A DNA stretch of 64,000 bases from Pempheris klunzingeri (Eukaryota; Chordata; Actinopteri; Acropomatiformes; Pempheridae), in NCBI RefSeq assembly GCF_042242105.1, contig NC_092013.1, positions 13,385,618 to 13,449,617 of the forward strand, in the 5' to 3' direction. The notes under the pieces were generated by a model, which made no database searches, was not told where the DNA came from, and was given only the letters and a program-made list of their open reading frames with translations. Positions 10,933 to 63,934 of this stretch are shown here, piece by piece. The translations under genes were made by a program, and so were the position numbers. How positions within the stretch are numbered: the first letter of the stretch is position 1; each line of letters begins with the position of its first letter.

Positions 10933-12298
10933 CACTCCTGATCAAAATCTTAAGACTGGGGGAAAAATTACAAGAATTCGCATTTCGCATTGCTGGATTG
11001 TAAGGAGGTTGCAAGAAGAGCTTCAAAATACAAAAAGAAGAAACAGTAGCAAGAGACAAAAAATAGAGAGTAGGCAATTTAATGAAAACTGCATTTAAAC
11101 TCAAACAGGCTGTTTTCAGCTGATCAAAAGTTTAAGACCATAGCCCAAAAAAACCCCAAAACAGAACTAAAAATTTGTTCAGGCATGCTTGATGAGAGTG
11201 TTTCCAGGAGGCTGGTGGGAACGTTCCTCCATGTGGTGAAGATGGCTACACGACGGGCATCCATGGTCTTGAACTGACGTCCGTTTTTGTAAACTTCCCT
11301 CACCATCCATCCCTAAACATTCTCAATGAGATTTAGACCAGGGGAACACGCAGGATGGTCCAAAAGGGCAACGTTATTCTCCTGGAAGAAGTCCTTCATC
11401 AGACGGGCGCTGTGACCTGCAGCATTGTCCTGATGAAAGACCCAGTTACCCATTACCCATTACCACACAGACGAGGGCCCTCAGTCAAGAGGGACGCCCG
11501 CTGCAACATCTTCACATAACCAGCCGCCGTTTGACGTCCCTGCACAACCTGAAGCTCCATTGTTCCACTGAAGGAAAAAGCATCCCAGATCATGATGGAG
11601 CCTCCTCCACTGTGCCGCGTAGAAAACATCTCCAGTGGGATCTCCTTGTCATGCCAGTAACGTTGGAAGCCATCAGGACCATCCAGGTTACATTTTTTCT
11701 CATCAGAGAATAAAACTTTCTTCCACCTTTCAATGCCCCATGTTTGGCGCTCCCTTGCAAAGTCCAAACAGGCAAGTTTGTGGCGTGGGAGGAGACGTGG
11801 CCTTTGAAGACGTTTTTTGTTCTTTAAGCCCTTCTCTCGCGGATGCTGTCTTATGGTTATTGGGCTGCAGTCAGCATCAGTAACGGCCTCAATTTGGGTC
11901 GAGGATCGGCCTGTGTCTTCATGGACAGCCCCGTCAGATCCCCCGGCTTAGCGCAGGTGAAATTTTTTTGGGTCTACCACTTGACTTTTTTGTCCCATAA
12001 CCCTCAGGATCCTTTAAGAAATGTAAAATGAAATGAATGAAAATGACATGAAAGCCAGATTTTTGTGCAGATTTTGACATTTTAAGGCTATGGTCTTAAA
12101 CTTTTGATCAGCTGAAAACAGCCTGTTTGAGTTTAAATGCAGTTTTCAATAAATTGCCTACTCTCTATTTTATGTCTCTTGCTCCTGTTTCTTCTTTTTG
12201 TATTTTGAAGCTCTTCTTGCAACCTGCTTACGATCCAGCAATGCAAAATGCGAATTCCTGTAATTTTTCCCCCGGTCTTAAGATTTTGATCAGGAGTG
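10933..12298 (-). mobile_element. Tc1/mariner DNA transposon with about 210-bp inverted ends
   Basis: The left end begins CACTCCTGATCAAAATCTTA after TA, and the right end finishes TAAGATTTTGATCAGGAGTG before TA. The inverted repeats run from 10933 to about 11146 and from about 12087 to 12298, and they share internal words such as GATCAAAAGTTTAAGACCAT near their inner edges. Length (1366 bp), TA flanks and a Tc1-type transposase relic on the minus strand fit the superfamily. Small differences between the two arms and the broken transposase show that it is an old, immobile copy. Confidence 0.92.
11150..11990 (-). pseudogene. Tc1-type transposase relic
   Basis: This is the decayed DDE transposase of the surrounding element. 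On the minus strand a frame at 11453-11767 carries WKKVLFSDE (the region of the second catalytic aspartate), RYWHD and [12 protein letters not shown], all typical of Tc1 transposases. The frame ends near 11453, at an ACCCATT repetition (11440-11462). Beyond that point the downstream part, including the HQDNAAGHS-like third catalytic region, continues in another frame. A further piece at 11124-11306 reads FKTMDARRVAIFTTW and seems to be the C-terminal end. The N-terminal helix-turn-helix region is poorly preserved. It is not expected to make an active enzyme. Confidence 0.85.
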
Positions 12299-21272: not shown

Positions 21273-21278
21273 ATGTGA
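21273..21278 (+). promoter_or_regulatory. Start-stop upstream element (ATGTGA)
   Basis: An ATG directly followed by TGA sits 41 nt upstream of the receptor ATG. It is the only ATG between the leader acceptor and the main start. Such minimal upstream frames are known to hold initiating ribosomes in other genes. Its effect here is inferred. Confidence 0.5.
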
Positions 21279-21313
21279 CCGCCGGCTGCGCCAAAGTGGC
21301 GCTTTTACGCACG

Positions 21314-24300
21314 ATGGATGCCCTTTTACGCGAGCAGACTAGTTGGGCGCAGAATGTTTCCTGGAGCAACTCAAGTCGTGGGAATGACAGTCATTTAGGA
21401 AACACCACGGTGAATCCTTTGAAGAGAAATGAAGAAGTGGCCAAAGTGGAAGTCACCGTCCTGGTCTTGGTGCTGCTGCTCGCTCTGACCGGCAACCTGT
21501 GCGTCCTGTTGGCTATCCACGCCACCAAGCACAGCCAGTCTCGGATGTATTACTTCATGAAGCATCTGAGCATCGCAGACCTTGTCGTTGCAATCTTTCA
21601 GGTGTTACCACAACTCATTTGGGATATCACATTTCGCTTCTATGGGCCGGATTTTCTGTGCAGGCTGGTCAAATACCTCCAGGTCGTGGGTATGTTTGCA
21701 TCTACCTACATGCTTGTCCTGATGTCTATTGACAGGTGCTTAGCAATCTGCCAGCCACTTCGCTCCGTGCACAAGAGAAAGGATCGCTTCTGTGTGATCG
21801 CCTCCTGGATGCTCAGCCTGATATTCAGCACTCCTCAAGCTTACATATTTTCCTTGCGGGAGGTCGGGAACGGCGTGTATGACTGCTGGGGGGACTTTGT
21901 ACAGCCATGGGGTGCCAAGGCATACATCACATGGATGAGTCTCAGCATTTACATTTTCCCCGTTGCAATTTTAAGCGTTTGCTATGGCTTGATATGCTTT
22001 AAAATATGGCAGAATTTCAATTTAAAAACCCGGAGGGAGCACTTCTTGGCTCTCACTCCAAAGCCCTCCAAAGGCGCTTATCCCCTCTCTCGTGTGAGCA
22101 GCGTGAGGCTCATTTCAAAAGCAAAGATCCGTACAGTGAAAATGACTTTTGTTGTGGTCGTTGCCTACATTGTGTGCTGGACTCCCTTCTTCTTTGTCCA
22201 GATGTGGTCTGCATGGGATCCTGCTGCACCAAGGGAAGGTAAAGGCACACTCAGTTTGTATTAATTTCTTTATTTATGATGCTGTTTGAATTATAATCCC
22301 AACATGAATCTATTTTGCATCATATATTTAATGGTTTGTGAAAATGTTATAGATTGCTCAGTTCATATCATCCTTGAATAATATAGAATATCATTTATAT
22401 TGGCGAATTTATTGCACATAAACCTGTTGATGTAAAAACAATATTTCAGCACCAATGTCTTATACATACAAAAGTTAGTCCTCCACCTCACAGATATCTC
22501 TGGGAACACATAAGCAATCCGCTTCACGTCCAAGGCAACACAATAGTGTTTAACTTCAGACTTCCCTCCAGTGTACACAGATGAATGGGAGTGTCATTTA
22601 CAGTAGTTATCAGCTCAGAGAAAGTCAGAGGGAGAGTAAATGTACCAGGACATCAAAGAGTTTCTATCTCTGTTCCCAGTGGTAGTTTATGTAATTTCCA
22701 TTTAACTACACAGTGCGTTCAGATTTACCCCTCCTATCATTTGAGTTTGCCATTAAAGGGGGCAAGAGCAGGGGAGCAGATGTGCTCCATAACCTTTCAA
22801 GTGGGGATCTGAGCAAAACAGGAGAAGTGCTCATTTAGATATTTAGATATTTCTTAAATGGGCCCAACTCAGCCAGACTAAGCTAATCTCTCTGTTTTAA
22901 TCTTCTTCCACAGAGTTTTGTGCAAAATTAGGAAAACAAACACATTAAAGCCAAGAATGCATGCACTGTGCACTACACTACTAAAAGTGTTTGTTGTAAT
23001 AGGGGCCTCCTTATTGTTTGGTTGGATGGATTCAACCACTTGACTATTTCTTATTACTGTTTAGCATTGTAAACATTATTGGTCACTGGTTATCGTATAA
23101 CATTAAGCGATTAAAACCCAAATCATTGTTTGATGTACTCTTTAGTACTTTTCAGCCACAAATGCACATTAAACATATAATAAGTCAATTATGAGAACAA
23201 AAAAAGAGGAAACAAGTATACAATTAACATATGTGCATGGGAGAGAGAAGAAGAGAGGGAAAGGTCAAAGAAAGCTTTTCAAAAAATAGCTTCTGTCCAA
23301 AGCCAAGATGTGAAAGTAAAGATAATTCAAATATTCTCTGACTTATTGCATTCACTTTGAAGTAACGCCATTCAGGTTAAGACTTCATGTAGGTGAGTTT
23401 CTTGTTGCCGAGGGCAGAAAACGAACGCACTCCCTCAGGGCCTGAGCATCAGTCATATCACCACGTTTTACAACCTGCAGTAGATCCACTGATAGTGATG
23501 GAGAAGCTGACTTCATGCACCCATGTAATGTTTGTTTAACATTTTTATTCTCAGAATTATCTTTGATTGACTTCATATCTTAATCAAATAAGTGATGGCA
23601 GTATCATCACAGACCTGCTTTTGATTTCAACATCACGCTCATTTTTCCATCTTCGCTCTCAGAAGAGCTGTACATCACGGTATTGCACAAGACCAGCCAA
23701 GATGAATGTTTTTCTTTCATTTCTGGCAGCACAAGAAAGCGGTGAATGTACTAAACTCAAATTGAACAGTATCAGGGTAAAAAGAAAAACATTTGAATGC
23801 TGTCATTTTGTGGTATTTACCCTGTGGAGAACTGTACTCCCCGTGGCACTAAATGAGACTGGGTGTTTGACTTATCTGTTGAACACATCTCATAATTCTT
23901 TCTAGCCATTTGGTTGACACTGCGTACAGCACACCTCTCACAATAAAGCATAGGACTATAGGGAGTCACTGCACCATGAACAGAGCAGGTCAGCATTTTC
24001 ACTTTAGGAGAGAAGAAGACAACGCGCACTAAATCTCTCTCACCCCATTAAAGATTAAGAAAAAAAACCTGGAAGTCTTCCACTTTCCACTGTTCAAATG
24101 GCGTGCCTCTTCAATGTGCTCTGTGCCTCTAACGATTGGAAATTTAATCACTTGAATGAATGAAAGAATAAGGTATATTTTTCCACCCAGGACAGCCTCT
24201 TCTAATTGAAGCCATGCATCACGTTTGTGTCAAACATTTTAAAATCCTATCTGTGTGGCATCAATCAACGTTCCATATTTTTTTTAGCTGTGATCCCAAA

Positions 24301-24829: not shown

Positions 24830-26332
24830 AAGAAGAAACTTTATTTACATAGCACATTTCAAAACACAGTAAAAACAAACAGTTGTTACAATTGTAAAGA
24901 AAATACACACTGTAAAACACAAAGGGAGTAAAAGGCAGGGTTAAAAGATTCCAAAAATAAGCAAGAAATTGAAACAAATAAATTCAAGTAAAAAGGCAGG
25001 CAGTTCAAGTAAAATCAGGAAATGCTTTCTGAGTAATGTTTGTTTTGAACGTGGACACTGACTTTGACAGATGGCAGGTCATTGCAGAGCCTCTGGGCCC
25101 TGCTGGCAAACGGTCTGACCCCCTCAGTTTTCAGCCTGGACTCTGGAAGAGACAGGAGACCTCTGCCTGAGGATCTCAAACCACACAAAGGCTCCTAGGG
25201 CACTAAAAGGAACTGTAGCCAGGCCACGAATAGCCTTAAAAGTAATCAATAATATCTAAAGATCAATCCGAAATAGTTGCTATACATCGCTGTTCCAACA
25301 AAACTTTGGAAACAACTTGATAGTGGTGCTAGAGGGAAAGCTAAAGAGATCTTCAAAGTCAATGGATTAAATCAACTGGGAACCATGAAAATTTCATGGT
25401 AACCCATCCCATATTTGTTTAGATATTTAAGTCTTGCCCAATGTGGCAGACAAACAAACAGACCAAAATCGACATTTTCACCCCCTCAGCCATGACGCTT
25501 GATGTTAGACAGACTTCAAAGTGCAGCCTGAAAGACCAAACAAAGCACACACACTGAGTTTGGTTTTAGTCTGGTTTCATCTTACTGGAATGGAAAGAAA
25601 ATTTGCTACTTGAGTGGCTTTTTACGTGTCCATTCCTTTTCAGAACCTCTTATCCTATTCAGGGTAGCTGGAGGCTGGAGTCTATCCCAGCATGCACTAG
25701 GTGAGAGGCAAGGTACACAGTGGACAGGTCATAGACAGGGCTGCTTGTTAATCTACATTTTTGTTCTTGCCAACAAATCCCATGAAAAGTCCAAAAGCAA
25801 CACTTTAGTTCCCATGTTAATACTTTCTGACTTTCGTACGCTGTCTGTGGCACACAGCTCCAAACTCACTGGTTCCTCCTGGGAGTGAAATTAAAGCTGG
25901 CTCATGCAAACATATAGTTAGTAGTATAGTAGAAGAACATGTTACTCAAACAGGAGGTAATTGTGTATTTCTTGGGACAATTTTCAGGTACTTTTCTCAG
26001 GTAATCTTTAAAAAATACAAATATCCACCAAAAGATAAAGCTCATGTTCTTTTCTGTCTCTCTTCCTAGACATGGCCTTCATCATCGCCATGCTGCTGGC
26101 CAGTCTCAACAGCTGCTGTAACCCCTGGATCTACATGTTCTTTGCTGGTCACCTGTTCCGTGACCTGATGCAGTGCTTCTTCTGCTGCTGTGGACGGTAC
26201 CTGACGGCCTCCTCCTGCAGCTGTGACCGACAGTGCAGGCACAAAAGGAGCTCCTCCACTTACATTTCCAAAAACACCAGCAGCCAGAGGAGCCTATCGC
26301 ACACATCCAGCACAGGGGGACCGGGACACTGA
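21314..26332 (+). CDS. oxtr: Oxytocin (isotocin) receptor, two coding exons
   Basis: Class A receptor for the neurohypophysial nonapeptide isotocin/oxytocin, acting at the plasma membrane mainly through Gq. Coding exons 21314-22238 and 26070-26332 join in phase (1188 nt, 395 residues; human OXTR is 389). The N-terminus has four N-glycosylation sequons (N14, N19, N24, N30). The family-diagnostic run [17 protein letters not shown] and GMFASTYM spans TM2-TM3, followed by DRC in place of DRY, as in this receptor family. TM6 has [11 protein letters not shown], and TM7, in exon 2, has NSCCNPWIY. The tail has a Cys cluster (FFCCCGRY, likely palmitoylated) and a Ser-rich end. The intron before TM7 sits where mammalian OXTR has one. 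The frame is open upstream to 21275, but only as GTG; ATG 21314 is the first usable start. Duplicate assignment (oxtra or oxtrb) is not possible here. Confidence 0.96.
22239..24771. other. oxtr coding-intron, left part
   Basis: This is the first part of the 3.8-kb intron before TM7. No exon of another gene is seen. A fragment of a dispersed repeat (GACCATAAATGTCTGTTCC, TTTCATGGCAATC) lies at about 24690-24770. Confidence 0.6.
24772..25270 (-). mobile_element. LINE-like 3' end with trinucleotide tail, inside the oxtr intron
   Basis: The plus strand reads (AAC)n(AAT)n(AAG)n at about 24772-24838 and then AACTTTATTTACATAGCACATTTC, followed by GCAGAGCCTCTGGGCCCTG and GAGACCTCTGCCTGAGGAT. I recognise this order from a common fish retroelement read in reverse, so the trinucleotide run is its 3' tail on the minus strand. 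No coding sequence is left. The poly-Ser and poly-Tyr frames around 24720-24977 are products of the trinucleotide run. Confidence 0.6.
25655..25745 (-). mobile_element. Fragment of the SINE/LINE-like family seen at 9150-9470
   Basis: GGAGTCTATCCCAGCATGC, AGGTGAGAGGCAAGGTACAC and GGACAGGTCATAGACAGGGC match the 3' half of that family in reverse orientation. It is a short, diverged fragment in the oxtr intron. Confidence 0.6.
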
Positions 26333-27639
26333 CCAGCCAGCTGAATGCAATTTAGGCTTCCTGTGGCCCAGTAATCATCATCAGTCATCAACTCCCCCAT
26401 TTCAGGCATTTAATTATCTGCGGCGGCACAGTGATTGCCACTGCAACGTGTTTTAAATTGAGCGGAATAGAGACTGTAAAAATCCAGACAATACCCTGCA
26501 GCCTTCAGTAACAAAAAGTGCAGAGCACAATGTCTTGGAGTTAAAAATGTGATGTAAGGTGAAGCTTCTGCACCTGTGAAATCTCTATGAATGTTTGTCC
26601 TCGGCTTTCCACCGCTTTCCTTTCGGACTCCCTCTGCACTGCAATCACTCAAATCTTATCTTTCTCTTCTATTGTAGGCTTTAGTATTTTAAGGTCTATC
26701 CTCTGTCTCTCTTTATAAACAACCATGAGCATTTACAAAGTTGTCTGTATGCTTCTTCCCCTCAGTCTTCTTGTTCCAATAGATGTTTTCCTGATTTGAT
26801 CTTAGTTGATGAGCAGTTGTCACTGTTATACTGATGTTGTACAAGGAGATTCTTTCTACAAAGCAAAGCAAAGTTCTTGACTGCATTTTAAGAAAGAATG
26901 CCAGAAATGAAAAAGGTCTTTGCCCTGCACAAATGGACACTAATGCAGTTATTGCTGTGATTGTTTGCCCTTTAAAACAGCATTAAAAAGCAATTTGTAG
27001 TTCTATTATTATATTTTACGGGTGGTGAAACAAAATGTTGATATGCATGAATGATAATAAGGTTATTAGGATAATATTCACGCTTGAGGTTAGACTTAAT
27101 CCAAATATCACCATAGTAACAACACAACAAAAATTCATCAACCAGGCAAAATCCATAAGGAATGCATTTTATATCAAGGAAGCTGGTTTAAGTGCTTTCA
27201 GTGTTTTTTCCTGCGCTACACATCAAACAATGTTTGTCCTTTGTGATGTAAAATGAAATTCACTTTATAAATAGTCTCCTCTAGCTCCTCTAGTGTATTT
27301 ACGTGCCATCATTTTTAGCAGCTCCATCTCTTCTTCTTTAAGAAATTGTTGGTGTTTTTGGGTGGTCAGTGCATAACAGTCTTGGCAAATGAAGCACACT
27401 GAATCTATCTGGGCTCAAATGAGAATAATGGCTCCCCCTAGTGGCCAGACTGATAAACCAGACCCAAGCCTTACTTTTCTGCTCTGTTTCTGTTTCTGCT
27501 CTGTTTACACTCAACACAGGCTACTGTGGTGGGCAATAAACATTAAAATTTCCCAAGGGGAGTTCTTCAAGGGGTCACAAAAGATGTGATAACTATCATC
27601 ATCATAGTAGTAAAAAGAAAAGCACTTTGTAAGGTTTTT
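26333..27639 (+). other. Probable oxtr 3' untranslated region and spacer
   Basis: Non-coding sequence follows the receptor stop. Candidate poly(A) signals are ATTAAA near 26982 and AATAAA at 27535-27540. Which one is used cannot be told from sequence. Confidence 0.45.
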
Positions 27640-27740
27640 GCCGTTCATTCACCCATTCTGCCACACACCCTCACACACCAGTGCAGTTTGGGGTGGATGG
27701 GAAGTTGACCCACTTTATCTCCTGAGCCACAGCCGCTCCT
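27640..27740. repeat. Short dispersed-repeat fragment
   Basis: GCCACACACCCTCACACACC followed by TTGACCCACTTTATCTCCTGAGCCACAG resembles a fish LINE-derived fragment. Weak call from wording only. Confidence 0.35.
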
Positions 27741-28690
27741 AAACATCATAAAAGTCATCTCAGCTTCACAACAAGACATTTAAACTTAAAACTTAAAAAT
27801 GCATTGTTTTGCCTCTATACTCCGCACACGCTTTTCAGTGTATATTATTGTGTTATTTAAAATGATATATTAAAGTTTCTCTCACTCATGGCTCTCAACT
27901 CTCACTTTCACCACCACATCCAGACTGTGTATGCCAGCAGGCTCTGCGATCACATCTTCAAAACTGACCTTAAGTTCACAGAGAGGGTTCATTTATTAAC
28001 TGTGTTTGGTTATACTGGCTTAATGGCTCAGTTCACACAAATAAATATGTTTTCCATCTTTCTCCAGGCAGTGTCTAGCCGTGTGTTACAGCGCACATAC
28101 ACAGACCTCTCCGTGAGAACTCAAGGACATAATATCATAATATTATAATAGTTCATGTAATGATGAAAACTGTTTATAGTGTGGACTGTGGAAGATCCTG
28201 AGTGAGAGACATTATTTATGGAAACAGATTTTATAAAAGTATCTTTTTTGTTTCAATGCTTTGAGAGTCACTAAAAAAAATCCTATTTATGTCTATTGAA
28301 TCAGCAGCAGAGATTTTTAACCCTCTGCAAATAAACAATGTCACATAGTGCTCATAGTCAAAGCTTATATACTGTAGGGGGAAATATGTTGCTTTGGCAT
28401 CTGGGTAAACTGAGCCTGTAAGGATTTACTTAAAGCTTCAGACTTAACCAAAATCAACCCTTTAAAACCTCCAAGTTAACAATCAGGAAGCCGATAATCA
28501 CTTCTAAAATTTTCCATAAATTTACAGTAAAACTCAACCATGAAATGCATTGCAGATCTTTAAACCAAGGAACGTGCTATAAGTGATAAAGAAACACACC
28601 AGGATCTTCAACTTTTCTCGAAGCAAAACATTTAATGTGTTTGACATGAAGTTAAATCTAATTTCAATCATTGCATCACAAATGCATTCC
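27741..28690. other. Spacer where a caveolin second exon would be expected
   Basis: I searched this stretch on the minus strand for the conserved caveolin second-exon features (FEDVIAEP, a hydrophobic hairpin, HIW) and found none. No stop-free stretch of adequate length is present. Nothing else is recognised. Confidence 0.6.
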
Positions 28691-28840
28691 TCAATTCATG
28701 CATCTCTGTGACAATACAGTAATTATTTGCATCTTGGCCACTTCCTCTATGATTTGCTTGACGTCCCAGTTGTAGACGTCGATCTCGGTGTGGCTGTTCC
28801 TGCTGATCATTGGCTCCTGGTTCTGGTCAGTTTCAGCCAT
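28691..28840 (-). pseudogene. Orphan caveolin-3/1-like first exon, no second exon found
   Basis: The minus-strand frame starts at ATG 28840 in an excellent context (ACCATGG) and encodes 49 residues to a stop at 28691. The first 36 residues resemble the first exon of caveolin-3: an acidic start, then HTEIDVYNWDVKQIIEEVAK, compared with the family pattern EIDLxNRDPKxINEDxVK that precedes the exon junction. At the expected junction (AAG ending at 28733) the next bases are ATGCAA instead of a GT donor, so a single G-to-A change at the first intron base would explain it. The frame then reads 13 unrelated codons. No FEDVIAEP exon is found downstream. Position (convergent with oxtr, in tandem with a caveolin-2-like gene) matches CAV3 synteny. 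It may be a pseudogene, a gene using an unseen splice, or a source of a short peptide. Confidence 0.6.
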
Positions 28841-28965
28841 GGTCCTGATCTCTGACTGAAGGAGCAAGCTGAGGCTGAAGCTGAGATAATGAAGCAAGAG
28901 AAGCCCAGATGAGAGAGCGGGTGTGTGGCCAGTCAGACACACAGCGGGCCGCGGTGGGGAGTGCC

Positions 28966-28975
28966 AGTTTATAAA
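28966..28975 (-). promoter_or_regulatory. TATA-like box upstream of the orphan caveolin exon
   Basis: The minus strand reads GTTTATAAAC about 130 bp upstream of the ATG at 28840. It is a good TATA-type match at a plausible distance. The palindromic core reads the same on both strands, so orientation rests on the exon. Confidence 0.4.
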
Positions 28976-29062
28976 CTGAATACCAGCAGGCAACTGCCAG
29001 CAATAACTATCTCAAACTGTCACAGACACAGAAGGCACTGCTGACGTACCATATGAAGTGTA

Positions 29063-29070
29063 GACACACA

Positions 29071-29102
<32 letters not shown>
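29063..29102. repeat. (CA)n microsatellite
   Basis: About 20 CA units with one TA interruption. Confidence 0.95.
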
Positions 29103-29103
<1 letters not shown>

Positions 29104-30177
29104 TACATTCATTCATTTTTACATACATTTCTCAGAGAGGTAAACAGGATCATGTTGAATATCACAGCGCTCGAAGAAGGTGTCATACTGCACCATGAAT
29201 TCAGTACATAAGTGATGATCTGAGGTGAGATCATGTAGGATGTTTTATTAACTTCCATCCACGTGTACACAGTGATACTCGAATGTTGCACATATAAACC
29301 TATATAAAACCCAAGTTATCAAATACACAACTTAGCAAGAATGTTTGCTCTCAAGCTTAAAACAACTTCATGAATAAAATTATGACTGTTATTATGCTGT
29401 AAAACTTACAAATCAGTACATGGTCCTGCTGACCTTCAAACCCATTGCCTCTCACTGGCCCTTCACTTCATTTAATAAAATATTAATTAATTTAATAGAA
29501 ATCGTGTTAAGAGCTAAAATTATTCCAAACAAAAAAAAAAAACAATTTAATGCATATCTTTTAATGCCATTTCCCCTCTTAAGAATATATCTTTCTTAAG
29601 TGGCTCTTCTTCTCTACAGAACTAAATATTCTTATGTTTGAAATCAGTAACTTCAGACTAGATTAGAAGTAGTCTTACATTTCTGTTCCTTGACCTTAAA
29701 CTCTAAACTGCAGTTTAAAATCTATCATAGTTAAAAGCCAAACCCCTGGATTATAACATAAAGAGGATACATCTTAAAAATTATGCTGAAATTACTAAAA
29801 AATTCTAAAAAAAAAAAAAAATTCCAGTTTTAACCCCACTATGATGCTGGTGTGAGAAAAATGCTTAACAAAAGTTTTCATCATTCTTGTTTTCTTCAAA
29901 TCAATCACTGTAACTGAGGATGACATTAAGAATCACATCACCTTCTTTTTATCACTGTGTCAGCTTCAAATTATTGTTTGAAAATGTGACCAGCCTTGTA
30001 TATTCATTAAAAAAAAAAGCCAGCTGATACTGTGGGACATTACAGTATCTTAACTGTGGAAAACATGTTTGTTTTTTTAATTTTGAATTAATTATTAAAG
30101 AATCAAATATCAATGCCCACAAGAACACTATTGCACATGTGCACGTAACGAATAATCCCGGTCTGGATGTGTGAGTC
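29103..30177 (-). other. Probable 3' untranslated region of the caveolin-2-like gene and spacer
   Basis: AT-rich non-coding DNA with A runs near 29530 and 29808. It lies immediately downstream of the caveolin-2-like stop. No other gene is seen. Confidence 0.4.
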
Positions 30178-31964
30178 TCATTCTTTGGCCAGGTGAATAC
30201 TGAAGCCACAGCATCTCCCGGCACTCGAGAGGAGGGGACGAACAATGATGTCCAGCACGATGCTCCATATGCTCTGCAGCCAGTGTGTGCCGATAAACAT
30301 ACACTGCATACATGGACCAACCATCCTGTCACAGAGAGAAACACAAAAATTACAAGTCACACAAATCACAAAAAGAAAAACATCACAGTGGTACCACATC
30401 CTTCTGAAATTAATGCATCTTTAACCTTCTGTCGTACTGATGTGTCCACCTGCTGCTATTGTCTTTCCCTGCACATCTTGGATCCCCCTGTATTAGTTAG
30501 ATACTCAAGACCAATTAAAGGTGCACTCCAACAAAATTAGTATTGCACTTCCATAAAGTTGGGGGACTAACGAGACACATGGTCAAATAAGAATGATAAA
30601 AAAATGAGCACAGCAGGGGCTGAGATATCCTGACTTTTAGTCCCTAGTATTAGTCGAGCTCCTACATTTCCCATGATGTCTTTCATTAGATCCCCCCTGC
30701 CTAGTAAGCACCAACATAGCACTGACATCCATCCTCATTCACTGGTACTACCAAAGTAGGTTGCTATTTTTTGCTTTCAGTGACATGTCTAGATAATTAT
30801 TGGATAGATGCCTGGTTCCCAGAAGATAAATCCTAATTACTTGCTCTCCTGAATTTTCCATTTACCATTTGTGTTTCTCAGTGAAATATTTCTACAGCTT
30901 TTGAAGGGAAAACATTAAGTAGTGCAGTGACATTAAAATTCCCCACAGGATGAATTGTAATAACTTTGGCAATCCCTTCATCATTTGGTCAAAATTTTAA
31001 TTTGTCCAATATTTTGGTTCATAAATAAATACCCACATTCCCATCAGAAATAATATGATGGCAAATATTAGCAAGCTAACATGTTAAACTACAATGTTGA
31101 ACACGTTGAACATTATTCCTGCTACACATCAGCATGTTGGCCTTCTCAACATGTTAGTATACCGGCGGAGGCAGGCATTCCAGAGATGGATATCTCAAAA
31201 TGTAGTCAAATCAAATCTAAATCATCTGTGTAGTAGTAAATGAGAAAACATTTTTACATGTTTTCCCTTGATATGTATGTAAGGCCTGATCTAAACCTAC
31301 CAGATGTGGAAGCAGCTGAGGATGGCGAAGAGGAGACCAGAGATGATTGACATGGGAATGGCGAAAAGCACTGTGACTACCCTGTAGATCCAAACCCTTG
31401 ACACCTCAAACAGGGCATTACTCCAGATCCACACTCTGTCTCCACTGCGCACTGACACCGGCTCAGCTATGACATCCTCAAACGTCACCTGGAGACACAA
31501 AGAGAAAGTGATGCTGAGGCTATAGAGGTGCACTGTTAAGTCATGTTCCTGATGGACTTGATTCACTTTCAAAAAATAGATTATATCCACTGGAGGGCAC
31601 TGCAGCCAGCTAAGCTGTTTCATAGTTCTACATGCCAATGATTTTGGGTAGTCTTTTTTTAATCAGCTGATTCATGACAAATGCTCAAATGGTCCATAAA
31701 AAAGGACAATAGAACCACTGCATAGGAATGCAATACCTTGAGGCAGTCATTGATACCTCGGGGGTCTCTGACATTAATCAGAGGCTTGGTATCACTGATT
31801 TCCACTAGTGTAGAAGTATGAATGTTTTCCTCTTCGTCCACAATAGGAGGGGCCCTCCACAGCATCTGAGGTTCGTCCCCATTATCAAATTCTTCAGAGT
31901 CACTCGAGTCCCCCAAGTCAATCTCTACTTCCTCTGAATCTTCCCCTTTCATCATGGTGTCCAT
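30178..31964 (-). CDS. Caveolin-2-like protein (caveolin-2-related), three exons
   Basis: Integral membrane scaffold of the caveolin family, expected in caveolae or Golgi-plasma membrane traffic. Exons 31737-31964, 31301-31488 and 30178-30325 join in phase (564 nt, 187 residues). Residues 1-76 are acidic and unlike mammalian CAV2. Exon 2 opens with [13 protein letters not shown], containing the caveolin signature FEDVIAEP, followed by [13 protein letters not shown], which resembles CAV2 (VWICSHALFEISK). The intramembrane hairpin has [21 protein letters not shown]. The last exon ends [20 protein letters not shown], again like the CAV2 end. A three-exon layout is that of CAV2, whereas CAV3 has two. 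ATG 31964 is the likely start; ATG 31955 and 31952 are alternatives and the frame is open further upstream. Its tandem arrangement with a caveolin-3/1-like exon mirrors CAV2-CAV1. Cysteines near the end may be acylated (inference). Confidence 0.9.
30520..30730. repeat. Dispersed repeat, copy in intron 2 of the caveolin-2-like gene
   Basis: It shares GACTTTTAGTCCCTA, GAGACACA after a GGGACTAAC block, CCTACATTTCCCATGATG and CTGCCTAGTAA in the same order as a copy at about 40500-40715. Both are diverged. I cannot name the family. Confidence 0.55.
30950..31200. repeat. Diverged dispersed repeat in intron 2 of the caveolin-2-like gene
   Basis: GGCAAATATTAGCAAGCTAAC, ACATCAGCATGTTGGCC and GGCAGGCATTCC are words I associate with a common fish interspersed repeat related to the fragments at 8085-8330 and 25385-25480. 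Limits are approximate. Confidence 0.4.
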
Positions 31965-34900
31965 CCAAACATGTGAAGAAAACACAATCCAGAGAGCAGA
32001 GTGGGTGCCTGTCACTTCCCTTTCAGCTCAGACTGAGGCCGCTGACCAAACCCCTCAGCTGGCTGCACAGTCAGGTTATATTGGGAACGTTACGGTGCCC
32101 TGGATGGTATTTGCAGATGGTCTTTCAAGTGAAGATCATTTTCCGGTGCTGTGGGAGGATAGGACGGATAGGGGAGGGATATAAATACTCTAAGCATGGA
32201 GACGGCTCTGTATACACTGATACACCCAACTGGGAATGTAACCACACAGACACACAGACAGCTTGAGACAGATCTGCAAGTATGCGAGCAAAAGTAAAAC
32301 AGAGCTTGGAGTGCAAATCATGCAACTTGCAAGAGGGAAATTTAATGATACTGGAATGCTTGCCTCACTGATAGCGGGATTTCATTCAGTACTAAATCTC
32401 ATTGTAACTCAAGAGAAGAGGCTTTGTGTCAGAAAAGGGGTTGTCTTGAAAAATAATGCTGCCTCCCTCTGGCCTGTAATGGAAAATTAAGTCTCTTTCT
32501 CAGAGCAATCAGGTGTGTCTGCGCCCCATTCTTGAGTGAAACACTGACCTAATAGTTAGTGTGTAATTATATATTATTATGAAGCTTTTGAATATTTACA
32601 TCTGACTTATAACTACAAGTGCACACCCTGTTTATATAATGTCCAAGCTATCCTTCATGTAAAAGCTTTGCTTTTCTGTTAAGATGTATAATGAGCTACC
32701 ATAGACTAGTTCAAAAAAATGTCTATATTTATATTTTTTTACTTTCAATTACTGACAACAAAAATCCAAGTTTATTTCTCAAAACTGACACTGATCCTAT
32801 TCTTGTCGTATTCAACTTAATGATCTTGATATGAACACGTTGTCTACAGTATCTAACTGTGGGATAAGAAAATAAATAACTAAATGAATAAATAAATAAA
32901 TAATGCTTAACCATCCCCATTTTATAATTTTATACCATCCATTACAGAAACATGCTGTGTAGTAGTTCCGCTGTGAAGATGCATTACTGCCTCTTTTTGC
33001 TCTTTCTACTTCCCCAGCAGCATCAGTCACAATGTGGAAGCAACAGGAGATGGAGTGCATGTTATCACATTATCCTCCTCGAGGCCCAGTTAGTATGAAG
33101 AGCGTTCTCAGGTCACTGCACTCTGTCTGGTGTAAAACATGTTTCACAACATGTTCTTAAGGAAAAATCCTTTCACCTCTGTCCACCTTTGGACCCATTA
33201 ACCAGTCATCCTCACTTCTATTAATAGGTCAGCTATGAATCCACAGAGTTAGACCTTATCAGACTCTTCTCAGCTACCCACGAGACCTTCATCGCACGCC
33301 CTTCTCACACTGCTCTCATCATCATCTTCACCAGATAATGGCCCAGTACAGCAGCTGGCAATGTGATAACTTATTGAAATACATACATATAGAAAACAAC
33401 TCCTGCAGAAATGTCCTCATATTACCCATCATATCTATCTGTGAAACATGTCCCACAAAATAAGATTTAGATGACTGATTGTATGCTACATTCATTTTAA
33501 GAACTATACATCCAAGAGTTTAACTTATGCACTTTTGCAAATCACTGACAAGAGAAGAATATGATGCATATGATGTGCAACAAACTTCTACATTGCACAT
33601 AACAAACTGTAAATCTGTTCAGAGTTTAACGTCAGTGAGGGACTCTACGATGACCACTGCACAGTCGCCATGGTAATGACAATTTCTGCGTCCTGGATGA
33701 TGACAGAGAGAACGCAGTGTGTCGATGACAGAGAGTTTCCTGTGTCTTTGCTAGAGACAACGGTATGCTAATGGACTGCATACCTCGCCAGATGGGGTTT
33801 GTTTGTGTCCATGGGTGCACAGGTGAGGTCATCGGAGAGTGTGAGTGTGTGAGAGTGCAAGAGATAGAAGGAGGAAAAATAGAGGAAAAGATTTCCGGGG
33901 GGTTGCAAGATAAGTTACTGGACAGAGAGCAAAATAGTCTTCACCTGAACTGTGCATTTGAACAAACAACTACTAAAAACACATTTGTTAAAAGAACTTT
34001 TTTTGTATATTTTGTATGTGATGTAAAGCAATGAAAACCTTAAATCAAATAGTCAATACAAAATAAGCAACAATTTAGTTCAAGTTAAACAAAAAAAATG
34101 TTTAGGCGTTAAAACTGGGCATGATTTGATGAGATTTGATTGACGGTGATCTGCCAAAATGAGTCCCACCAGCTTTAAATGAGCTAGAAATTCAAAAAAA
34201 CAAAAACAGCTGACGAAAAATCTTTCATGTGACATAACCAAAAGCAAAACAACCAAAACCCCATTGCAAGAGCTGATTTAAAAAGTAGGAAGACAAAATA
34301 TACATTAAATGTTCATATGAAAAATGCACATTTTATAGCAGATATAATTATAGACAGATTTTTTTTATCTTCTTTTTATATTTAACAGGTGTTGTAACAG
34401 GTTTGCAGGCCCAAAGAGAAAAGGTAAGACCTGCTGTCTCAGACGACAGACACACAGACACATATTATTCTTAATCATAATGGAGAAAATATACGTATAC
34501 TTTTTTATCTTGTGCTTTGATTGAACTCCAACCACGGTTCGTACCCTCTGTTCCCAACAGCAGCAGTTTATTTGGGGCATGAGGGATGATGGACAGTGTT
34601 CCTGCTCAACACCTGTCAGTCCAGCTGTTTTCAGCACAATAGGTCAGACTGATTATCAGTCATGTCTAGTTAATAATACAAATCACCAATTCAGTGCCTC
34701 CCATCAAACACGACAACCCGAAAAAAGGGGGAAATATATTTATAGCACTGGATTCTCTGTACAAAATCCCCCTCAAATGCCAAACAGCATTATCACAAAA
34801 TGAGTTGCAGTTTGCTTTCAGTATCACATTATTCATGTGGAGATGAAATTAAGCTTTGAATGAATGATATAAATATAAACAACTTAACTAGTACTCCCAT

Positions 34901-44483: not shown

Positions 44484-46733
44484 CTATAGCTGAGAATCAT
44501 TTGTCATTTCTGCTTCATTTTCAGGCAGGAGTGAAGCATCTTGGGAAAAGCTTTGATCAAGGATGCCTTTGTTTTCAGTTTTAATCAAACCCAGTCTCTT
44601 CTTTAATAGTTTGTCCTCGTTGTTCAACTTTGTGCGGATTGCAGTTTTTATTTGGCTGCTATCCACGCCAAACTTGAGTGCCACATGATCTGGAAGAAGA
44701 AACATGAAAAAAAAAAATCTCCATTTTGCATTCTTCACTAATGAGAATCCACAAAAGAAGGTCTGTGTGCTTAAAATTCAATAATACAAAATGCTCTTTC
44801 ACGTACCGATTATACCCCTTAAGATCTCAGGTGGGAGTTGAGGTTTGTGGCATTCCTCTCCAGTGAAGGCGTTCCTCCGGCCCTGCAGGGAGTGTGTGGC
44901 CAACGTTTCTCTGTCAAAAAGTATCATCAGCAGTGCTGACGTGTACTTCTTGTAGTCCGCGATCTCTGCGATGCGCTCGTAAAGATTTTTTGGTACTTGA
45001 AGATTCTCAGAGAGGTACAAGAAGTTGTGATCGTCCTGAGGGCAAAACAGGAGCACTGACATGATCTTCGCTGTCCAATCATACCAAAATGCAACTGAGC
45101 TGAACAATCTTTCCAAAACTGTGCCATTATAAAAAGACATGCAGTATATGAGCTCTGACCTCTGGGATATTATGAACCGCTCTCATGTCCGCCTCAGGCT
45201 CATTCAGGAAGGAGATACTTTCATCTTGAGAGTTCTGTGGCACCGCTGTATCGCCTCCTTGGAGAACGTGATCCAGAGTGACTCGTAGTTCATGTGCGGT
45301 GTGCCTCATCTGCATCATGAGAGTGTTCATCTCTGTAAAAAGTGTCAAATCACTTTAGAAACCCGAAGCGGAGCTCGTTTATTTACCGAATAATTCAAAT
45401 TATTTGATAATTAGATGATGATTAGACATTTACAGCAGGGCCTTAGCCAGGACTTTATCCGAACCCCTCCCACCTAAAACCCTTTTAGCAAACCAAGAAC
45501 CAAATGAAAATCACAAAAACATTTTACACTTCATTTATCTCCCTACATTGTGGTCTAAATGTTATATCAAAGCCTTTTTTAGACTTATTTACACATCTGT
45601 AAATGCAATTTTCTAATAATTTCCTACAAAATGTCTTGAAAAAAATTATATGCACAACTGAATCTAAAGGAAAATAGGTAAGTCCTTGGAGAAAAAACTC
45701 AATTTAAAACACAGATAAATATTATTTCATTTGTTTATGAATTACTGGACACTTGATTCTCAAAAATATTTTATCTGTAGGATGTTAATTTTTTAAATGA
45801 TCAGCTGACATGCTGTGCACTAACTAAAAGACTCTCTAAGTTACATCAGCGATTAATTATAACTGAATAACTGGACGTGGATCACTTAAATAAACAATTG
45901 TTTTTCCTTTATTTAGTACCATTTTTTTTGGGAAACCTCTTGTAAATTATTCAGAAATTATGGACATGCTGTCTAAGTTGTTTTGGTCTAAAAAAAAAAA
46001 AACAAATGTATCAGAATCAACATTGACAAGCCCAACATCTGCAATGTGTGTATAATCATAGATTGTAAAATTGGGTAATAAACCCCCCCCCAAGTTTACA
46101 TAAATAAGACCAATGGCATAACCTGTTCTGACTGTGGTTACAGTGAGTCACATACAGCAATTAGACTGTGTGATTTTAACTTTTTTTTTTTTTTTTTAGC
46201 ATATTAATTAATAAATTAGTCATCTTTTTCCACCTACCTTTCAGCTCCCTCAGCTCCCTCTCCGCCAGGATTCGACATCTGCGTTCATATTTGAGTTGTG
46301 CCTGCAGTTGCTCTATCTTCATGAGCAGAGTGATGGTGTCTGTTCTGATGCCTGGACTTGTAATATTTTCTTCATCAAATTCAGCATTTTCTTGCTGCCA
46401 AAATGAGAAGTAAGTGCATGAGCAATTTTCATATCTAGTGAGGTAAAAAAAAAAAAAAAAAAACTACAACAATAAAACAGATGTTTTTTTCCTGCACAGT
46501 TCAGCTGCATAAGCCCTCACCTCATTGTTGGGAAAGGGTGAGTAGCTGGACTCCTCAGACTTGTACTTGTCCTCCATTGGATCACAGCCAAACTCTTGTG
46601 CCTCAGTGCCGATTTTAATCATCTTGACTGGTGTTTGTGTTGGAGTCTCTCCTGCGCCTCTCTTAGGTGGCATGGGGCTACACTTAAATCTGGGGAGAGT
46701 GCGAGAAAGCTGCTCAGTTGACACACCAGACAT
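44484..46733 (-). CDS. BEN-domain protein with coiled coil, five exons
   Basis: Likely nuclear chromatin or DNA-binding protein; BEN domains bind DNA or mediate corepressor contacts (family knowledge). Exons 46521-46733, 46238-46394, 45160-45332, 44807-45035 and 44484-44689 join in phase (978 nt, 325 residues) with GT-AG borders. Residues 1-71 are basic-to-acidic and low in structure (PPKRGAGETPTQTPVKMIK). Exons 2-3 encode a coiled coil at about 95-140 (LLMKIEQLQAQLKYERR, ERELRELKEMNTLMMQM). The BEN domain spans about 195-290: VPKNLYERIAEI, LLMILFDRETLATHSLQGRR, KPQLPPEILRGII, IKTAIRTKLNNEDKL. ATHSL and KLNN recall BEND6. The layout of coiled coil plus one C-terminal BEN domain resembles single-BEN proteins, but I cannot name this member. 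It shares an 888-bp head-to-head interval with rrp9. Confidence 0.85.
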
Positions 46734-50600: not shown

Positions 50601-53600
50601 TGTCCCCCTGTGATTTATATCAAATGTCTCTTCCTTCTCAGGGCCTATCATTCAGGAAGGGGACTCATGATCTGTACAGCGCCTCTCATGATCGCTCAGT
50701 AAAGGTGTGGAATGTGGACGAGAACGCGTATGTGGAAACTCTGTGAGTAAACGGATCAGAAAATAACATGTCTCACTTCCAAACGTTCACATTCAGCTTA
50801 AATATGTGATTTTTAACTGTAATTGGGACTTGCTGTAGCTTTGGGCACCAGGACGCCATCACTGGACTGGACAGCCTGAGCCGCGAGTGCTGTGTGACTG
50901 CAGGAGGAAGGGACCGCTCGGTGAGGGTGTGGAAGATAGCCGAGGAATCACAGCTGGTGTTCCACGGCCACGAGTGAGTCTCTCTCCGTCTTCCCTCTGG
51001 TGTTTCTGTGACTTCAGATGTGCTGGTCTACTGGCAGATCCATGTGAAAACACAGTGGTGCACACCAGCTAATTAATGGAAACATTTTGAACTGGTGAAA
51101 TAAGAAAGTATTACTTTTCTTTAGAGTTATCAATGAAGGTTAAAACAATGGTGACAATATAAAAGAAAATCTAATGTTGGTGTAGGTTTATTGACTGTAA
51201 TGTTAGTAGATAATTATGTTCAATAGTTTTCACACACTGCTTTAGTGTATATGTTCCACATAGAGGTTTTTGTTGCCTATATGCTATACAGTATAGTGAT
51301 TATGCATGCAATTATTGATTAATGCAGACTGCTTAAGTCTTAAGAACTCATTTCTGAATATATTAAACAAATGAGAGAGAGAGAAAATAGTTTTGTCTAA
51401 GTTTATTCCTTTTAAAGAGAAAAAGCCTTCAAACACTGATGTAAACAGAAGAAATATTGACACAACAAACAGTAGATGAAAAGTGTCCTTTTGTTGAATT
51501 CCTTTGGCTGATTTGTATATTGAACAGCTTTGCAGTGAGTTAAGCACACAGGAGTCGGCCTTTGAAGATCCACTGGGAGCAAATCTGAAAACAGTATTGA
51601 ACAACAAAGTCAAGCCTCATGATTTCAAATCGGAAAAATATGGCACAAACTTGGTACAAAATTGTTACCATAACAAGAACACTGGATTCACAAAAACATA
51701 CATCAGTTATCAACAGCTACTTAGAAAGCTGTATTAGCAGTGCATTAGCTCCAGACAGCTATTATAGTGGCTAGCACAGTCAGCAGAGAATTAGCTGCAG
51801 AAAAAAACTAATCAACAGACACAAAGCAGATATAATTAAAAAAAAAAGTACCAACAGATAAACTATTGTAGAGTCTATTATATAGAGAGTATTGAATGAG
51901 AGGAGAGAGTGAGTTCAAACAAAGCAAATTTTAGTTAAACTGTAACTGCTACAGAGCTGTGACACTGAACTGGTATGGTACAGGAAAGACTTCCAGAATG
52001 TTTTAATACCTCATTTGACTTCAATAGTTTCATTTGATTCTCCCAAATTCATAGCAGAATTGACTTCAATAGAGAGCAATTGATTTTTGATCATCCATTA
52101 ATCTGTGTTTTTCCTGGTTTCTGTACTCTTCTATTACAGTAAACTAAATATCTTTGGGTTGTGGACAAAACAAAACTTCTGAGGAGACCATCTTGGGTCT
52201 CTGGAAACCCTGATTGCACTTTGCACCGTTTTCTGGCATAGACCAAACCACTAATTGACTAATCAAGAAAATAATCGCCAGATTGATCGACAGTGAAAAT
52301 AATTATTAGTTTTGGCCATAGTCAGCGTACAAAAAGACTAACGTCATCGGTTTTATATTTATTTTGTCTTCCAACAGGGGTTCAATCGATTGTGTCCAGC
52401 TGATTAATGAGGAGCACATGATAACAGGAGCTGATGATGGGTAAGACGGTTCCAGCTTTTCCAGCCACACTGTCTGAACAGCAGTTTTGTTCCAGGATGT
52501 AATCGCGTCAGCAGATACGTTCACTTTTCTCTTCCGTGCCCTCTCTCAATTTTCTGAACGACCCCAGCTCAGTGTCTCTTTGGAGTGTCAACAAGAAGAA
52601 GCCTCTCAGCACGGTGAAGCAGGCTCACGGTTGCCATGGTGACGCAGGGCTGGAGCAGCCTCATTGGGTCGTTTCAGTAGCGGCACTTCAGAACTCGGAT
52701 ACCGTCGCCTCAGGTGCCTCTGGCTGTGAGAGTCATCCTTACCAGCTTTCCAGCAACACAAATACACACACTTAATTATGCGCAGGACGCATTTAATTAC
52801 ACCTTTTCACCGTGATTCCAGATTTAATCAATATAATCAAAAGTGATGCTGATCAAGTGTCCTACACACTCGAAAGTAGAAAAGCTGATGACACCGTGTT
52901 TAGTAAAGCTGTACTTAAAGATGTTCTGCTGTCTGTAGTGATATGAAGTAACAGTGGTTCTTCTGTGCAGGTTCACACAACTCACAGGTGCAGCTGTGGA
53001 AGTGCAGCCAGAATTTCCGCGGACTGGAGCGTCTATTCAGTGTGCCAGTGGTAAGCTCTTACTCCCCCTTCTCTTTTCACAAGGGCCACATTTACATAAG
53101 ATGTGTCTCTTAGCTAATTATAGATGTGATTTGGAGCTGCCAAAGTGGCCGTCTCAAAACATCTGTTTTTGTCTCTTCGTCTGCTTCCTCTCCCAGTCTG
53201 GTTTCATCAACAGTCTGAAGTTTTCAAGCTCCGGGCAGTTCTTGGTGGTAGGAGTTGGACAGGAGCACAGGTAACTAAACTAATGGTCATGTTTCCATAG
53301 AAACTGTCTCTAGGCTTCCTATCAATTACTTAGATGTCAGGTGCATGTTTAGTGAATGAAATGTCCACTAGATGGCAGTGTTAATCCATCTCAGTCGCAG
53401 GTAAAAACACATTCACTGGTTACCAGTGCCGCCTCACTGGTTTCAAGTTGTCTTGAAATCTTAAAGTGACCACTGGGGAAACATGACATCAGTTGGTTCA
53501 AAGAATCTCTGAATAGTCATTGGGGAATATATTGTTTATTATCTATCGTATCAGACATTTCATTTAGGTGAATACCAGAAAAATGATATGTAATGATGAA

Positions 53601-56926: not shown

Positions 56927-63934
<7,008 letters not shown>

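Follow-up and report, generated by a model that had tools for sequence, protein, structure and literature searches.

A probable caveolin-3 pseudogene standing tail to tail with oxtr in Pempheris klunzingeri

The 64 kb stretch of Pempheris klunzingeri DNA analysed here (the window) contains, on its minus strand, a caveolin-like locus that we read, at a probability of roughly 0.88 and from its sequence, as a caveolin-3 pseudogene at the ancestral place, converging on oxtr at one side and flanked on the other by a cav2-like gene that is intact. We favour this reading because the first exon ranks at the top of the window in comparisons with caveolins, a remnant of the second exon follows as it should in order, strand and phase, the splice donor between them is lost, and the remainder of the second exon is unmatched. 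The original prediction had left two options, a CAV3 gene in decay or an expressed N-terminal peptide. Decay is now supported more firmly than the prediction had grounds for, since part of the second exon survives behind its acceptor. The features of the locus and of its neighbours are collected in Table 1.

Table 1. Position, strand and basis of assignment of the features in the window
Feature	Position	Strand	Basis
oxtr, large coding exon ORF	21275..22264	+	human OXTR chains; Pfam 7tm_1
oxtr, last exon	26072..26332	+	assigned by eye from the ORF list
Run-on RVESHE and TGA stop	27882..27902	-	translation
Truncated cav3-like exon 2, first 22 codons	27903..27968	-	tblastn; pattern search; AG (CTTAAG) directly before
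Read-through of former intron start, 13 codons and stop	28691..28732	-	ATGCAA replaces GT donor; donor score, codon score
cav3-like exon 1, coding part, 36 codons, MAETDQNQEPMISRNSHTEIDVYNWDVKQIIEEVAK	28733..28840	-	rank against CAV3 1-38; coding log-ratio
TATAAA 5' of exon 1, candidate promoter element	28968..28973	-	sequence
E-box CAGTTG 5' of TATAAA, candidate; chance possible	28991..28996	-	one of four CANNTG sites in 28840-29300
cav2-like exon 3 with stop	30178..30325	-	tblastn CAV2, E 3e-4
cav2-like exon 2, Caveolin domain	31301..31488	-	Pfam PF01146, E 3.7e-28 on 31300-31488; tblastn
cav2-like exon 1, 73 codons	31737..31955	-	gene model; no Pfam match for the exon alone

An open first exon without its donor

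The first exon lies in an ORF of the minus strand (28993-28691) that is open throughout in the ORF list. From an ATG at 28840, in the context GGACCATGG, 49 codons run to a stop at 28693-28691 and encode the peptide HTEIDVYNWDVKQIIEEVAK; the ORF, the ACCATGG start, the 49 residues and a TATA-like box, here the TATAAA at 28973-28968, are as predicted. There are no frameshifts and no stops in frame within the exon. At the expected junction (28733) AAG is followed by ATGCAA, so that an A stands where a G belongs, again as predicted; with ATGCAA directly after codon 36, exon 1 lacks the GT that should follow it in a caveolin gene. On a scale computed, for all sites reported here, with a donor frequency table, the lost junction scores -6.39, and no GT in the first 50 codons from the ATG exceeds 0.21.

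Taken alone, the resemblance of exon 1 to caveolins is modest. It matched no Pfam family at E up to 10, and would be expected to span only about the first 23 of the 133 positions of PF01146, judging from the match of the cav2-like exon 2, which starts at position 25. Among PDB sequences the sole match at E up to 10 was a xylanase (E 2.2). For a ranking, the 1615 stop-free stretches of the window were cut into 1949 overlapping segments of up to 60 aa; the segment bearing exon 1 came first of the 1949 against both human CAV3 1-38 (score 56, next 38) and human CAV1 1-66 (score 45, next 38). Shuffled sequences attained the exon-1 score once in 5000 for CAV3, 11 times in 5000 for CAV1 and 53 times in 5000 for CAV2. 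The HTKEID stretch is one residue short, and at sites common to human CAV1 and CAV3 the exon reads NWDVK for NRDPK and DVVVK for DG(I/V)WK. The top rank and the rarity of such shuffles, yet with a residue missing and NRDPK altered, indicate a caveolin likeness that is real but eroded. The predicted likeness stands in the rankings and finds no echo in the profile search, and to call the exon well preserved, as the prediction did, was too strong.

Coding character was scored from codon counts of four coding stretches against a noncoding background of three stretches, chosen by us and all within the window. The 36 codons of exon 1 gave a log-ratio of +12.8 bits, a value that no stop-free noncoding segment of that length attained (147 segments, overlapping); the margin is narrow, as the top noncoding segment scored 11.7 bits. 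The 22 codons of the exon-2 remnant gave +6.8 bits, and the 13 read-through codons -8.2 bits. Past the lost junction, coding character is therefore gone; a former intron would look like this, whereas an exon lengthened for use would not.

These values bear on the second option of the prediction, in which a transcript that is left unspliced and ends within the former intron is read through the lost junction into a 49-residue N-terminal caveolin peptide. The open frame, the ACCATGG start and the TATAAA fit such a product, and an AATAAA at 27997 of the minus strand, past the exon-1 stop and before the remnant and the sole one on that strand in 26400-28993, could end the transcript. However, the 13 added codons have the composition of an intron, the contrast between their score and that of exon 1 counting against the peptide; residues common to CAV1 and CAV3 are changed, and the peptide would carry neither the scaffolding nor the membrane part. 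We find this option scarcely credible.

The remnant of the second exon

The prediction had described exon 1 as an orphan with no second exon before oxtr. This proved incorrect, as an exon starting with FEDVIAEP stands between the two, its codons beginning at 27968 in phase 0, right after an AG (CTTAAG/GTC). In tblastn searches of the window it was matched on the minus strand by CAV3 (27971-27903, E 7.4e-5), CAV1 (27974-27906, E 1.2e-4) and CAV2 (27974-27888, E 1.7e-4). A degenerate DNA pattern for FEDVIAEP, a signature of Caveolin (PF01146), places it at 27962-27940; the pattern has two sites in the window, this remnant and the intact cav2-like gene, and none in 100 shuffles. Of the two-exon structure of CAV3, with a GT-AG phase-0 intron after VK, the AG and the phase are kept and the GT donor is gone. 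Exon 1 and the remnant combined score 125 against CAV3, 112 against CAV1 and 67 against CAV2, and so are nearest CAV3 in a comparison of three human sequences.

About the first fifth of exon 2 seems to be left. The remaining codons, roughly 90 by the length of CAV3, had no match in the window with CAV1, CAV2 or CAV3 (tblastn, E up to 1), and a three-frame reading of 27968-26380 by eye recognised no further caveolin exon-2 sequence. Apart from the remnant, CAV1 and CAV3 matched exons 2 and 3 of the cav2-like gene to E 1, and CAV1 also matched once at 51597-51734 (E 0.88); the missing part of exon 2 was thus not seen. With all three queries, among the matches listed for the window at E up to 50 and against 26001-28700 at E up to 10, only weak pieces, non-collinear with caveolin, lay past the remnant. 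A weak CAV2 match at 26048-26146 of the plus strand (E 0.058; 8.6e-4 in the smaller search) was rejected; it overlaps the last exon of oxtr, on the strand opposite to the cav3-like locus. By the tblastn searches to E 1 and the frames read to 26380, neither a full scaffolding domain nor a membrane hairpin nor a C-terminus follows 27903. In 26000-29200 no repeats account for the truncation. Lacking the hairpin, the C-terminus and the greater part of the scaffolding domain, the locus would not be expected to yield a functional caveolin.

Two further sites might seem to offer a way around the lesions. Inside the remnant, a donor-like AAA/GTGAGA at 27905 scores 7.38, which is fair, and could turn the remnant into an internal exon of 63 bases, in phase; caveolin exons beyond it were not seen. 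The other, a weak in-frame GAA/GTGGCC at 28741, might splice exon 1 to the remnant and yield a truncated product of about 61 residues. In favour, this GT has phase 0 and the acceptor AG ahead of 27968 survives; against it, the site scores 0.21 where the best GT between the ATG and the remnant scores 7.31, and the product would be without the membrane-binding parts. Such a product is extremely improbable. Neither of these GT sites nor the AATAAA at 27997 brings back the membrane part of a caveolin.

Also on the minus strand, 27600-27745 resembles by eye an old SINE of tRNA origin (GGCTGTGGCTCAGGAGATAAAG). It had no second copy in the window (blastn, E 1e-3). Across 26000-32500, ARAGORN found no tRNA genes, and the four Rfam matches at E up to 1 were each under the gathering score.

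Intact neighbours on either side

The prediction had placed CAV3 beside oxtr, and oxtr was indeed found there, on the opposite strand. Over 21311-22237 the three top-ranking matches are human OXTR chains (best 7ryc, E 2.6e-131), above the V1a and V2 receptors; the short last piece of the gene (26072-26332) matched no Pfam family. With oxtr on the plus strand, its last ORF ending at 26332, and the adjoining cav3-like locus on the minus strand, the two genes converge, tail to tail. Mammalian CAV3 and OXTR are likewise convergent.

The C-terminal exon of this oxtr keeps a cysteine run, CFFCCC. Otocephalan Oxtrb has lost such residues, according to PMC9606234; on that basis the gene may be oxtra or a non-otocephalan oxtrb.

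Upstream of the cav3-like locus, the cav2-like gene (30178-31955, minus strand) has three exons with GT-AG borders and a joined frame open over 184 codons. Its exon 2 scored 85.9 bits with CAV2, 70.5 with CAV1 and 65.5 with CAV3 in tblastn, the CAV2 alignment extending into intron sequence. Judged by its frame and these scores, the gene is intact and closest to CAV2. It shares with the cav3 remnant the FEDVIAEP exon start, the strand and the block, and differs from it in being intact, in having three exons and in lying nearer CAV2 than CAV1 or CAV3. We take its name to be cav2r, which in the literature searched occurs solely as a primer name.

As an intact caveolin on the same stretch of assembly, the cav2-like gene is a useful control for the possibility that an assembly error mimics damage in a cav3-like gene which the animal carries complete. 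The lost donor is a small change, of a kind such an error could make. However, there are two separate lesions, with substitutions scattered over both exons, the window contains no N, and the adjoining gene has its long open frame and its splice borders in order. An assembly error is highly improbable.

Origin and fate of the locus

CAV3 is a two-exon muscle gene standing by OXTR, and the locus agrees with it in place, orientation, MAE near the start, the phase-0 junction and the FEDVIAEP start of exon 2; exon 1 has 36 codons here against 38 in CAV3. Unlike CAV3, the locus has no donor, its exon 2 stops after 22 codons, and residues common to CAV1 and CAV3 are changed. With the pseudogenes left by the teleost duplication it has in common readable remnants in the ancestral gene order between intact neighbours; both that label and a surviving sister copy are inferred here. 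The zebrafish cav3 gene, likewise of two exons, shows synteny with OXTR (PMC1851013).

The anatomy of the locus, its lesions and its neighbours are direct observations; we infer that a second copy exists, what caused the loss and in what order the lesions arose, the most likely cause being loss of a duplicate. Under the pseudogene reading, selection would have been relaxed on one of two cav3 copies from the teleost-specific genome duplication. The other copy, which would have stood beside the second oxtr, would carry on the muscle function and leave this one free to decay. Exon 1 has kept its open frame and lost its donor, and exon 2 retains its acceptor and 22 codons, followed by unrelated sequence with a stop; no working caveolin would be expected. 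According to PMC9606234, oxtra and oxtrb are present in every teleost assessed, and cav3a and cav3b are names in use in a coho salmon paper (PMC4521378).

Since exon 1 is open and coding-like in its codons, if by a narrow margin, its decay is either recent or slowed by something. In another reading the coding gene is dead, and the promoter region has been retained as a regulatory element in muscle or as a noncoding transcript. The open exon, the TATAAA and the E-box would suit this; against it, motifs this short arise by chance, and we regard it as unlikely. That selection has kept exon 1 and its promoter after loss of the caveolin core, in muscle giving either a short, soluble peptide from the caveolin N-terminus or a regulatory transcript, is very unlikely.

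The caveolin-3 pseudogene reading assigns this spare copy the ordinary fate, decay. The locus leaves our understanding of caveolins unchanged; it offers a small, clear example of a caveolin-3 copy dying in place by oxtr as its cav2-like neighbour survives, and could help to date gene loss after duplication in fish and to distinguish the two oxtr blocks. No report of this pseudogene was found in the literature searched, a scope that mostly excludes subscription papers on caveolin evolution, and CAV3 does not occur in the main text of PMC3826523. Pattern searches of viral and prokaryote contig collections, which are silent on fish, matched 15 stretches in the viral contigs with the cav2-like exon 2, and 4 stretches in the viral and 77 in the genome contigs with a CAV1 stretch; none of these matches encoded a relative.

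Elsewhere on the minus strand of the window, 11456-11767 resembles by eye a fragment of a Tc1/mariner transposase, with no Pfam match at E up to 0.01. A coding stretch at 44802-45140 carries a BEN domain (Pfam E 3.4e-7), and 61263-63910 holds exons of a family-3 GPCR (Pfam 7tm_3, NCD3G and ANF_receptor), by eye a metabotropic glutamate receptor.
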